In this document: positions 33,042 to 36,523 of the stretch, piece after piece
How the letters are laid out: the number at the start of each line of letters is the position of its first letter
Position numbering within the stretch: position 1 is the first letter of the stretch
Assembly (NCBI RefSeq): GCF_003019275.1
Contig: NZ_CP027848.1
Span: 1,178,001 to 1,242,000 of the forward strand
Source: Staphylococcus muscae
Lineage (GTDB): Bacteria; Bacillota; Bacilli; Staphylococcales; Staphylococcaceae
Length of the DNA: 64,000 nucleotides
Direction: 5' to 3'
The notes under the pieces: generated by a model
What the model was told of the DNA's origin: nothing
Seen by the model: the letters and a program-made list of their open reading frames with translations, nothing else
Database searches by the model: none
Made by a program: the position numbers and the translations under genes

Positions 33042-33492
33042 AACACAAAACAGACACATCTAAAAAGCATATCACTGCACTGTTAAATCCTTTTTAAAAT
33101 GTCACTTAAACACACTTTAACCAACATCTATTCCATCCATCTCACAAATTATTAAAACGACATTACACTATTGTAATAAAACAATCGTTCACCAATAGCC
33201 TCTTGTGCATAAGCATAAAGATAACCCTACTGAACATGCAATAGAATCAATAGTTATTTATTGAAATCTTAAATAATATATCACTAAAACCTATGAAAAC
33301 AATACTTTCAACTATACTCCCAGTTATTTCTTCTCTTGTTCTCACATTTAACCCAAATGAATTTTTCGTAAAAATAATTTTCTACACACAAAAGCTATTT
33401 TACAAAAAGATTTACCCCTTAGATGAAAAGTATTATTTTATTGTTATCAAATCACTAATAGAGAAATGAGTGATGTCAGAAAGGAGTCATAC

Positions 33493-34779
33493 ATGCTAAG
33501 AAAAGGATTTGTCACATTCGCATTAAGTATACTTGCAATAACTTACTTGTTTGGCAATGCAGATACACTATCTGCACAAAATGATGATGTTTTGAAAGCC
33601 ACCGATGCTACTGAAGCTCCCACACCAACAAACTATGATATTCCACAAGAAGGATTAAAAGCCATACAGAATAATTCTTCTCTCTTTAATGAAAAAATAA
33701 TTGGGAAAGATACTAGAACTGTTGTAAAAGACTATCTTAAAAACCCTTATAAAAAAATTGTACTTTTAGATATAAAATTCAAAAATAATACTGGTACTGG
33801 TACTGGAGCAATGATTAATAAGAATACAGTATTGACTGCTGCACATAATGTTTACTCTTCAGAACTAGGAGGATTTGCAAAAAATATAACAGTTTATGCA
33901 GGTCTATCAAAATCAAAACTGCCAATAGGGCAAGCTCATGTCACTCAAAAATTTCTCCAAAAAGAATGGGAGACTACTGGTTTACCCAAGTACGATTTCG
34001 CTATTCTGAAATTAGACAATAATTTAGGATGCAAAACTGGTTATTTTTCCTTTTCACAAGATCTTTCTCTCAATCAAACACTTCAAATTGCTGGATATCC
34101 AGGAGACAAGGGATCTATCACTCAATATTCAGGAAAAGGTACTTTGCTTAGTTTTACAAATGATAATTTATTTTATGATGTAGACACATATAATGGCGAG
34201 AGTGGCAGTCCAATTTTAAATGACAAAAACTTAATAATAGGTATCCATACTAATGGATTTTCCAACTACAATTATGGGACACGAATAAACAAAGAGAAGT
34301 TAGCTCTTATCAAGAAGTGGAGTGCCGATCCAAAGCCTATCAAATATAACAAAAACATTACGATCACCAAATCTAACATAAAAATATGGAAAGATTTAAA
34401 TCTGTACACACGTCGCTCCAATAAAGATGTGAAGTTAGGTAAGGTCTATCAAGCTAAAAATATTTACACACATTTAAACGGTCATAAATATCTTTCTTTA
34501 TTTGACAATCACAATCATTTAATAGGTTACGTAGACAAAGTAGATACAAAAGATTTAATTGCGACAAAAATAAATAAGACCGTTAAGATTGTTTCGAAAA
34601 AAGACATCATCTGGGGAGATTTTTTCTGGTCTAGAAAAATTGCGCCAACAAGCAAATACTACAACAAAACTTTCAAAGCAAAAGGTCTCTATACGCTTGG
34701 AAACAAAAAGAAATATTACACTTTATACAATAATAAAAACAAATGGGTCGGCTATATTGATATAAAAGCCACAAAATAA
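33493..34779 (+). CDS. Secreted V8-like glutamyl endopeptidase with C-terminal GW/SH3-like repeats
   Basis: This is a 428-residue protein. It has a signal peptide (about 1-28), a propeptide containing the motif ATDATEAPTPTNYDIPQE (residues 36-53), and a chymotrypsin-like domain with triad His118 (TAAHN), Asp168 (YDFAILKL) and Ser237 (GESGSP). Thr232 and His252 occupy places of the V8 S1-site residues that recognise Glu. Cleavage after Glu67 would give an N-terminus KIIGKDTR like other glutamyl endopeptidases. Residues about 298-428 hold two repeats ending LIGYVDK and WVGYIDI, resembling GW/SH3 wall-binding modules, unusual for V8. AAGGAG sits 6 bases before the ATG. Three LPNTG genes follow in line. 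Confidence 0.85.
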   Translation: MLRKGFVTFALSILAITYLFGNADTLSAQNDDVLKATDATEAPTPTNYDIPQEGLKAIQNNSSLFNEKIIGKDTRTVVKDYLKNPYKKIVLLDIKFKNNTGTGTGAMINKNTVLTAAHNVYSSELGGFAKNITVYAGLSKSKLPIGQAHVTQKFLQKEWETTGLPKYDFAILKLDNNLGCKTGYFSFSQDLSLNQTLQIAGYPGDKGSITQYSGKGTLLSFTNDNLFYDVDTYNGESGSPILNDKNLIIGIHTNGFSNYNYGTRINKEKLALIKKWSADPKPIKYNKNITITKSNIKIWKDLNLYTRRSNKDVKLGKVYQAKNIYTHLNGHKYLSLFDNHNHLIGYVDKVDTKDLIATKINKTVKIVSKKDIIWGDFFWSRKIAPTSKYYNKTFKAKGLYTLGNKKKYYTLYNNKNKWVGYIDIKATK

Positions 34780-34793
34780 AAGGAGTGATTACC

Positions 34794-35363
34794 ATGTTTA
34801 AAAAATTATACGCTTCATCTCTTATAACTGCAGCTATTACAGCAAGTTTTACAATCAATACGAATGCTGCCACAAATAATGATGAACATACTACTATTCC
34901 AGCTAATAATCATTTAGCAAAACCAATTAAAAAAGAGACAAAAAGATATGCTTGGGAGCCACAAAATGGCAATTATCATGACCTAAGTAATAGAACAGAA
35001 GTGCCATCAGAATATCTCGACTTTCTTGATACCCTTCCAAGTTCAGAAGATGTACAAAATGATCCACGTATTAAGGATATATTAAGCAAACAAGATCGTC
35101 ATACTAACCCATATCTTGTAAATAATCCTACTATAATCAACAAAGATTTTAATGCAGACACTGCAAATTCTATAAATCAAAATGATGCAAGTAAACCACT
35201 ATCAACTCAAGCACCACAACCATCACATACTCAATTAACCGTTTTACCTAACACTGGTGGTGTACATTCAGTATCACCTTTGGCTATATACAGTCTTCTG
35301 TTATTGGGTGGGGCACTTGTTGTTTATCGTCCGTTTTCTTCTGTAAATAAGTCAAAAGTTTAA
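34794..35363 (+). CDS. Small LPNTG wall-anchored protein 1
   Basis: This 189-residue protein has a signal peptide (cleavage near NAA at about 24) and a hydrophilic mature region without Cys, then a Ser/Pro/Gln-rich spacer. It ends in a sortase signal LPNTGG, a hydrophobic helix and the tail VNKSKV. The start at 34794 follows AAAAGGAG, 15 bases after the protease stop, so both are probably cotranscribed. Its mature part (KRYAWEPQNGNYHDLSNRTE) lacks the propeptide-like motif of the next two proteins, but the sorting region is nearly identical to theirs. Function is unknown. Confidence 0.8.
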   Translation: MFKKLYASSLITAAITASFTINTNAATNNDEHTTIPANNHLAKPIKKETKRYAWEPQNGNYHDLSNRTEVPSEYLDFLDTLPSSEDVQNDPRIKDILSKQDRHTNPYLVNNPTIINKDFNADTANSINQNDASKPLSTQAPQPSHTQLTVLPNTGGVHSVSPLAIYSLLLLGGALVVYRPFSSVNKSKV

Positions 35364-35400
35364 TTCGTCATACTTAAAATAAGGAGTGATTACCATGTTG
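35242..35400 (+). repeat. Tandem 3'-end/leader module, copy A
   Basis: This module encodes the LPNTGG sorting signal of protein 1 and the whole gap to the next ATG. It is nearly identical to the copy at 35834-35992, with the same 153-base distance from its first base to the next ATG. Confidence 0.8.
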
Positions 35401-35955
35401 AAAAAAACAATCTCAACTTCATTAATTGCAATTAGCTTATTAAGCATCGGAAACTATACTTATGCAGCTTCAAACAATCATTCTCGTGATGATATTTTTA
35501 CAGCAACTGATTCAATAGAACCACCCACTCCCACAGATTATGACCTTCCACAAGACCAAATTGAACCTACGGAAGAACCTATTTTACCTGATCCGTATAC
35601 CACAGGGCAAATCACGGCTAAAACATTGATGAAAAAGTATAAAGGGCTTAAAGATATTAAAGATATCGATCGATTGTTAGCAAGTCTGCCAAATACTTAT
35701 ACATCCCAACCTAATCAGACTTCATCATCACGTATTTCTCAACAAACTCAAATACCGCAACCCAATCAACCTTCATCACCACAAATCTCTCAACAAAATC
35801 AAACATCACAACCGTCACACACGCAACTCACTGTTTTACCTAACACTGGTGGTGTGAGTTTAGCGTCACCTTTGGCTATTTATAGTCTTCTGTTATTGGG
35901 TGGGGCACTTGTTGTTTATCGTCCTTTTTCTTCTATAAATAAGTCAAAAGTTTAA
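35395..35955 (+). CDS. Small LPNTG wall-anchored protein 2 with protease-propeptide-like motif
   Basis: This 186-residue protein has a signal peptide to about residue 24. Residues 32-54 (DDIFTATDSIEPPTPTDYDL and on) closely match the protease's propeptide. A short charged helical stretch and two imperfect copies of a Gln-Pro-Asn-Gln/Ser-Ser/Ile-Ser-Gln-Gln repeat follow, then the LPNTGG signal. It sits 31 bases after the previous gene with an identical AAGGAGTGATTACC leader. In the protease the Glu is followed by Ala; here it is followed by Pro, which should resist cleavage by a glutamyl peptidase. Function is unknown. Confidence 0.8.
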   Translation: MLKKTISTSLIAISLLSIGNYTYAASNNHSRDDIFTATDSIEPPTPTDYDLPQDQIEPTEEPILPDPYTTGQITAKTLMKKYKGLKDIKDIDRLLASLPNTYTSQPNQTSSSRISQQTQIPQPNQPSSPQISQQNQTSQPSHTQLTVLPNTGGVSLASPLAIYSLLLLGGALVVYRPFSSINKSKV

Positions 35956-35992
35956 TTCGTCATACTTAAAGTAAGGAGTGATTACCATGTTG
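35834..35992 (+). repeat. Tandem 3'-end/leader module, copy B
   Basis: This is copy B of the sorting-signal-plus-leader repeat. A third, more divergent and shorter copy without the downstream leader lies at 36321-36445. Confidence 0.8.
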
Positions 35993-36445
35993 AAAAAATT
36001 TATATCAACATCTTTAATTACATTTAGTTTATTAAGTATTGGAAATTTTACACATGCTGCTACAAATAATGATTCCGATGATGATACTCTAACAGCAAAT
36101 GATTCAACAGAACCACCTACGCCAACAGATTATGATTTCCCACAAGATAAAGCTATACCTATCGGTGAACAACCACCTTTCATTATTGTTCCTGATGAAG
36201 ATACAAATACACCAACAGATCATGATACAAAAGTTCATTCATCTAAAACATTGACACCATCAAACCAATCAAATACTAGCACATCTCAAACACCGCAACC
36301 GCCACATACGCAACTGATAGTTTTACCTAACACTGGTGGTGTGAGTTCAACATCACCTTTTGCTGTATACAGTCTTCTATTATTAGGTGGGGCATTTGTT
36401 GTTTATCATCCACTCACATCCATGCTTATGAAGTCAAAACTATAA
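35987..36445 (+). CDS. Small LPNTG wall-anchored protein 3 with protease-propeptide-like motif
   Basis: This 152-residue paralogue of the preceding protein shares the signal peptide (MLKKFISTSLITFSLLSIGN) and the motif at residues 32-54 (ending TEPPTPTDYDFPQD). The middle is shorter and Thr/Pro-rich; the LPNTGG signal and helix are conserved, but the tail is altered (SMLMKSKL). It has the same ribosome site and spacing. It closes the cluster before a strong hairpin. Probably it arose by tandem duplication. Confidence 0.8.
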   Translation: MLKKFISTSLITFSLLSIGNFTHAATNNDSDDDTLTANDSTEPPTPTDYDFPQDKAIPIGEQPPFIIVPDEDTNTPTDHDTKVHSSKTLTPSNQSNTSTSQTPQPPHTQLIVLPNTGGVSSTSPFAVYSLLLLGGAFVVYHPLTSMLMKSKL

Positions 36446-36470
36446 TTTTTTCAATCTAGAGCGCCCAATG

Positions 36471-36515
36471 TTTCAAGTGATAATACATCACTTGTCACAT
36501 TGGGTTTCTTTTTGT
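36471..36515 (+). terminator. Terminator of the protease/LPNTG cluster
   Basis: Hairpin CCCAATGT..CAAGTGAT / ATCACTTG..ACATTGGG followed by TTTCTTTTTG. Confidence 0.8.
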
Positions 36516-36523
36516 CCAAAATA

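Follow-up and report, generated by a model that had tools for sequence, protein, structure and literature searches.

A V8-like protease and small wall-anchored proteins that share a propeptide segment: a candidate recombining surface cassette in Staphylococcus

Staphylococcal and Bacillus glutamyl endopeptidases belong to MEROPS S1B, and the secreted proteases of staphylococci are usually studied as free enzymes. In the sspABC and scpAB operons, the known inhibitor partners of the proteases are staphostatins, which are folded cytoplasmic proteins. Searches of the open-licence literature gave no description of a protease paired with a small LPXTG gene; in the accessible parts of two accounts, the surface protein SpsR figures just among listed surface genes or as one associated with disease, and 'serine protease' goes unmentioned in those parts (PMC8297860, PMC13404703). 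Here, we describe a locus in a 64,000-nucleotide stretch of a 2.1-Mb Staphylococcus genome (S. muscae, our genome G000; contig NZ_CP027848.1, positions 1,178,001 to 1,242,000), hereafter the window. A V8-like serine protease of the glutamyl-endopeptidase type (428 amino acids, 33493..34779) is encoded there directly upstream of three small proteins with LPNTG sorting signals, all read from ATG starts: LPNTG 1 (189 amino acids, 34794..35363), LPNTG 2 (186 amino acids, 35395..35955) and LPNTG 3 (152 amino acids, 35987..36445). The four open reading frames lie on the forward strand with gaps of 14-31 bp. On balance, we somewhat favour the view that they form a surface-protease cassette that recombines: propeptide segments would move from one gene to its neighbour, and selection would preserve them.

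The segment in question is a motif of 22 residues. In the protease it occupies residues 31-52 (33583..33648), and in LPNTG 2 (35488-35553) and LPNTG 3 (36080-36145) it stands just behind the signal peptide; LPNTG 1 lacks it. An earlier note on this DNA had correctly recognized the motif in these three proteins and located it within the predicted propeptide of the protease, but had given it a length of about 23 residues, with ends one codon too long. Used as a single query in a six-frame scan of the genome, the protease retrieved LPNTG 3 (E = 3.6e-6) and LPNTG 2 (E = 4.1e-6), with signal peptide and motif matching together. A profile of LPNTG proteins only, run against 84 staphylococcal genomes, matched the N-termini of the proteases of G000 (3.9e-8), G090 (6.8e-8), G097 (5.5e-5), G098 (5.7e-5) and G006 (1.0e-4), as well as some other LPXTG proteins and the signal-peptide end of a secreted protein of another kind (G051:C31, 2.3e-4). 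In addition, 21 LPXTG proteins stripped of signal peptides and anchors were locally aligned with 16 propeptides, with 1000 shuffles for comparison. The real alignments of LPNTG 2 and LPNTG 3 with the window propeptide were unmatched by any shuffle, and LPNTG 1 showed no propeptide match (best p 0.068 among the 16 propeptides). Eight of the 21 proteins reached the floor of p 0.001. Seven of these were expected (LPNTG 2, LPNTG 3, three proteins of G090, P0004 and the G047 protein); the eighth, a G078 protein, matched P0014, whose long Thr/Pro/Asp-rich propeptide weakly matches several proteins, and we set this case aside as an effect of composition. The partners from G070, G041 and G009 gave p 0.012-0.017, uncorrected. 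Taken together, the single-query E-values, the LPNTG-only profile and the shuffle test place the similarity beyond chance.

The protease gene itself is a mosaic. Between G000 and its closest relative, G090, DNA identity is 88-98% across 33401-33640, through the signal peptide and motif (65-92% in the preceding intergenic stretch), and 93-100% across 34301-34780, which covers the C-terminal modules, whereas it drops to 55-65% across 33641-34300, apart from one 60-base bin at 83%. Synonymous divergence (dS) reaches 2.75 for the catalytic part, as against 0.10 for the C-terminal part. In trees built without the interrupted or cut reading frames of G067, G075-C36 and G006, the catalytic domain of G000 groups with those of S. 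microti and S. americanisciuri, and the C-terminal part of G000 falls with those of G090 and P0009, in a supported fork with G070a and P0014. A catalytic-domain tract (33641..34300, forward strand; about 60% DNA identity) has thus been swapped, relative to G090, between a near-identical propeptide and near-identical C-terminal modules. The 5′ ends of the LPNTG genes have likewise been shuffled, with signal peptides exchanged among copies: between L2 and Lc the signal-peptide dS is saturated and the motif dS is 0.25, and between L2 and La the values are 0.14 and 0.64. In G003, which has no protease of this type, BLAST shows a protease signal-peptide region followed by the body of a partner, the two having been fused by a deletion.

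Between protease and LPNTG proteins, the motif has a dS of 1.2-1.6 and a nonsynonymous divergence (dN) of 0.20-0.34, based on about 20 synonymous sites. Near saturation of synonymous sites, together with fewer amino acid changes, suggests, weakly at this number of sites, that the sharing is old and constrained. The earlier note had offered, as its alternative, a common 5′ cassette inherited by duplication. A shared 5′ segment indeed fits better than a ligand; a simple recent duplication of the 5′ end is ruled out by the synonymous divergence and by the signal peptides of LPNTG 2 and LPNTG 3, which are of the partner type and not of the protease type. Since equorum-group proteases without any LPXTG partner carry the motif in their propeptide element, the protease is the likelier older home of the motif.

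By its fold, triad and S1 residues, the protease is predicted to be a V8-type endopeptidase specific for Glu. Predicted structure and alignment give it a trypsin fold with the triad His118-Asp168-Ser237; at the S1 positions, aligned to 1wcz, Thr232 is invariant and His252 is kept in at least 90% of 35 sequences, and we take these residues to correspond to Thr164 and His184 of V8. The catalytic domain is 25-32% identical to 1p3c, V8 and Esp. The predicted propeptide (residues 29-67, 33577..33693) ends in Glu67, which is kept in at least 90% of 13 relatives; the end of the signal peptide was judged by eye and the mature N-terminus comes from alignment to 1p3c and V8. Residues 1-64 have a predicted local distance difference test score (pLDDT) below 50 where the alignment is shallow, and the propeptide is accordingly predicted to be disordered and undocked in the model. 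The repeat pattern of residues 285-428 (34345..34776) points to two beta-rich modules, with pLDDT of 85-98 by blocks. We call them GW-like by resemblance, since the window protease has no Pfam GW/SH3 match; its relatives give only weak DUF matches, and the GW/SH3 comparison yielded two PDB sequence matches at chance level (E 0.04 and 0.44). Fold-search matches were confined to residues 68-280, the C-terminal modules having been searched within the whole chain only. Among the relatives, the propeptide of the S. americanisciuri protease is expanded and acidic, with T-E-T-N-[YD]-[ND]-I-P-E-like units repeated in it (L038:9105-10592), and S. microti has two tandem proteases followed by one LPXTG gene, the first with a diverged C-terminal region (L037:7910-11271). 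In the equorum group, the protease lies downstream of a family 2 glycosyltransferase with a TarS-type linker domain and of a gene of 88-90 amino acids without Pfam match (L039:3330-4331, L041:7348-8328).

All three LPNTG proteins combine a signal peptide with LPNTG, a hydrophobic stretch and a basic tail, as expected of sortase-anchored proteins. With the LPXTG model TIGR01167 (cut-off 15.9 bits), LPNTG 1 scores 15.6 bits and LPNTG 3 scores 16.5 bits; LPNTG 2 gives no match at E up to 1. No fold is predicted for LPNTG 2, on an alignment of only 7 sequences. The A3 profile, used to look for SpsR-type DGT-repeat proteins, found no match in G000 at E up to 0.01.

The reading that we somewhat favour can now be set out in full. 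The four genes would constitute one cell-surface protease cassette and would probably be co-transcribed. The protease would be exported as a V8-type zymogen with a short propeptide, probably activated by cleavage after Glu67 and held at the wall through its GW-like modules, and the LPNTG proteins may be unstructured peptides, anchored by sortase and exposed in the same layer of the wall, most likely towards the host or matrix. The cassette would evolve by segmental recombination, with catalytic domains, signal peptides and the propeptide segment moving between alleles and between neighbouring genes. The motif of LPNTG 2 and LPNTG 3 would then be a propeptide segment acquired long ago, probably from the protease, and held since by purifying selection. 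Several points weigh against this scheme. A simple deletion fusion of the G003 kind cannot explain the window, because the signal peptides of LPNTG 2 and LPNTG 3 are partner-type, and a small internal exchange is needed in addition. That the amino acids are conserved where synonymous sites are close to saturation suggests that the motif may have a function beyond this reading, and the dN/dS comparison stands on some 20 synonymous sites. The name of the GW-like modules comes without a library match. Moreover, in the accessible part of one account, activation in S. aureus proceeds by removal of the pro-peptide by aureolysin and not by self-cleavage (PMC3795244).

Linkage of such proteases to small LPXTG genes recurs across the genus. 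At E up to 1e-20 the protease is matched in 17 of the 84 genomes. The 22 matches correspond to 19 loci, after removal of two 262-amino-acid frames without C-terminal modules (G024:C80 and G081:C1:170092) and with the tandem genes of G070 counted as one locus; the three reading frames excluded from the trees were retained here. A small LPXTG gene follows immediately downstream on the same strand at 11 of the 19 loci: G000, G090, G070 (S. microti), G041 (S. americanisciuri), G012 (sp. GSSP0090), G048, two loci of G075 (S. pseudintermedius), G067 (S. lutrae), G064-C66 (S. intermedius) and G086 (S. ursi). At nine loci, where the ATG is clear, the gap measures 14-47 bp, and coordinates give 18 bp at G075-C36; the 5 bp of G064-C66 depends on an assumed start, which is no start codon. 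Protease and small LPXTG genes are thus a recurrent tight pair in Staphylococcus, and, set against the 3-19 TIGR01167 matches per genome in the 17 genomes, the pairing appears far from random, by a test made post hoc. By neighbouring genes, whose names we presume, the 19 loci fall at nine genomic sites, of which six have a partner (narT-nreC, the copA side, mecA-coiA, the bkd side, G012 and G064-C66). No LPXTG gene was found near the protease at any of 14 loci of other Firmicutes (from 18 loci sampled among 80 of the 102 found, with no protease picked at 4).

The partners do not form one conserved family. Those of the narT-nreC lineage are relatives of the window LPNTG proteins. At other sites they are LPXTG proteins in which the DGT...PNV.PH.D repeat occurs one to three times, and some records of S. 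pseudintermedius and S. cornubiensis give them the name SpsR. Against a Coa/Efb-like, fibrinogen-binding reading of these repeats, the residues reported as conserved in the accessible part of PMC8761706 (G37, Y41, A43, R44, P45, K49 and P50) are, by eye, unmatched beyond DG. The partner L042 matches EMC7_beta-sandw above the Pfam cut-off (2.5e-9) and, weakly, CarboxypepD_reg, both in or close to the DGT repeats; the remaining partners match neither, and we take these as chance resemblances. DGT-type proteins also stand alone, with no protease of this type adjacent, at all 12 further loci inspected (the G095 contig starts 236 bases before the gene), and seven of the genomes concerned (G047, G003, G054, G009, G076, G095 and G051) contain V8-like proteins of other kinds only, or none at all.

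Such stand-alone proteins, together with the variation of partner families between lineages and the eight loci without a partner (G011, G097, G098, G006, G081, G024, G015-C56 and G064-C124), could be accounted for if the neighbours were unrelated surface genes gathered at recombination hot spots without any joint function. We regard this as unlikely, as gene order, strand and short gap are alike at six different sites and sharing between propeptide and LPXTG protein occurs in two lineages.

The distribution of the motif bears on a second explanation, already proposed in the earlier note, in which the wall-anchored motif mimics the propeptide and, by docking on protease or zymogen, would restrain it, keep it at the surface or protect it there. 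Wide occurrence of the motif in unrelated secreted proteins, which by the note's account would have told against this idea, is not seen: in the 84 genomes, both motif profiles remained confined to these proteases and LPXTG proteins. The window-type propeptide profile matched 13 places, all of them these proteases or their LPXTG partners; eight were its own rows, and the independent five are proteases (G098, G006, G011, G070 and G041, the last two weakly, at 0.025 and 0.036). The IVENQEYPE-type profile matched 11 places, namely proteases and one LPXTG protein (G047); six, including G047, were its own rows, and the five independent ones are proteases (0.002-0.034). Evidence of sharing that is free of this bias comes from the LPNTG-only profile and from the shuffle result for the G047 protein. 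This restricted distribution, the tight gene spacing and the conservation of the motif despite near-saturated synonymous sites would all suit a ligand. However, the propeptide is undocked in the model, although a short linear interaction would be compatible with this, LPNTG 2 has no predicted fold and the protease has putative wall modules of its own. None of seven partners at other protease loci (G070, G041, G012, G075-C8, G048, G064-C66 and G086) reached p 0.001 against the 16 propeptides (best p 0.012-0.12, uncorrected). Moreover, the G047 LPXTG protein aligns with the G048 propeptide with a score of 120, reached by 0 of 1000 shuffles, in a genome without a protease of this type, and the LPNTG protein P0004 retains the motif when the protease P0014, presumed to be from the same genome, has none by eye. 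The ligand proposal of the earlier note consequently fares poorly, and we consider it improbable. A variant, in which a constant propeptide-like wall tag, matching the constant propeptide of the protease itself, would allow the same LPXTG proteins to hold, restrain or release at the wall any catalytic domain swapped in between the constant modules, seems to us quite improbable too. As to its architecture, the G047 protein carries the protease-type propeptide at its N-terminus and four DGT repeats (L196:5073-5951).

A role of the LPNTG proteins as substrates, trimmed by the protease or released by it from the wall, is very unlikely: the genes share one cluster and the products probably one wall layer, and LPNTG 1 offers several ordinary Glu-X bonds, but three of the four Glu of LPNTG 2 precede Pro, which makes a poor site for a glutamyl endopeptidase, and DGT-type relatives persist at the 12 stand-alone loci.

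The cluster lies between genes that we take to be narT, whose product matches Pfam MFS_1, and nreC. BLAST against the empty site of G089 shows a single break, at window positions 33066/36519, so that a segment of about 3.45 kb (33067..36518) is absent from G089; for G090, G070 and G041 the break falls at the same point to within about 15 bp, and for G078 to within about 50 bp. The G+C content of the segment is 0.29-0.35, compared with 0.34-0.42 in the flanks. Among 30 nreC loci, narT adjoins nreC without an LPXTG gene at six (G089, G007, G077, G050, G040 and G005), and 23 were uninformative, no narT being matched by the patterns in the short stretch taken. G078 has a lone LPXTG gene between narT and nreC, without the protease. 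The earlier claim that the cluster interrupts narT-nreC synteny is borne out, as is its reading as a possible lineage-specific island, in that a single site differs by an insertion or a deletion specific to the lineage. Behind LPNTG 3, a hairpin followed by a T-rich stretch (36458..36509, forward strand; 76-nt fold, −25.8 kcal/mol, z −6.0) is a probable operon terminator, although a simple terminator scanner did not report it. In G090, two reverse-strand open reading frames directly behind the LPNTG genes and before nreC (L036:12636-13816) resemble, by eye, an IS3-type transposase pair.

The recombining cassette that we favour would draw attention to a class of proteases with C-terminal wall-type modules, encoded repeatedly upstream of small wall-anchored proteins, including at the SpsR locus. 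The natural swap of catalytic domains supplies two alleles whose main difference lies in this domain, and the shared motif raises the question of why a disordered propeptide segment persists in two different surface proteins.

Compared with V8/SspA, Esp and BIGEP, the window protease is alike in trypsin fold, triad, S1 positions, place of the mature N-terminus and short propeptide, and it differs in having two GW-like modules at its C-terminus and an LPXTG gene downstream. A second V8-like protease of the same genome, encoded outside the window (G000:C1, about 1393546-1395201; L198:2047-3702), similarly associates a V8-like domain with a sortase signal, but no GW-like modules were seen in it, and protease and LPQTG anchor form one chain, as a single-chain version of a wall-displayed protease. 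The sspABC and scpAB operons resemble the window cluster in that a protease gene is followed by a small gene; in contrast to staphostatins, the window partners carry signal peptides and anchors by which they would be exported and anchored to the wall, and LPNTG 2 is predicted to be unfolded, so that the LPNTG proteins do not qualify as staphostatin-type inhibitors. Finally, SpsR and the small LPXTG proteins of the S. intermedius group differ from LPNTG 1-3, which lack the DGT...PNV.PH.D repeat, in carrying such repeats and no clear propeptide match, but they share with them the position of a small sortase-anchored partner encoded directly downstream of the same type of protease.

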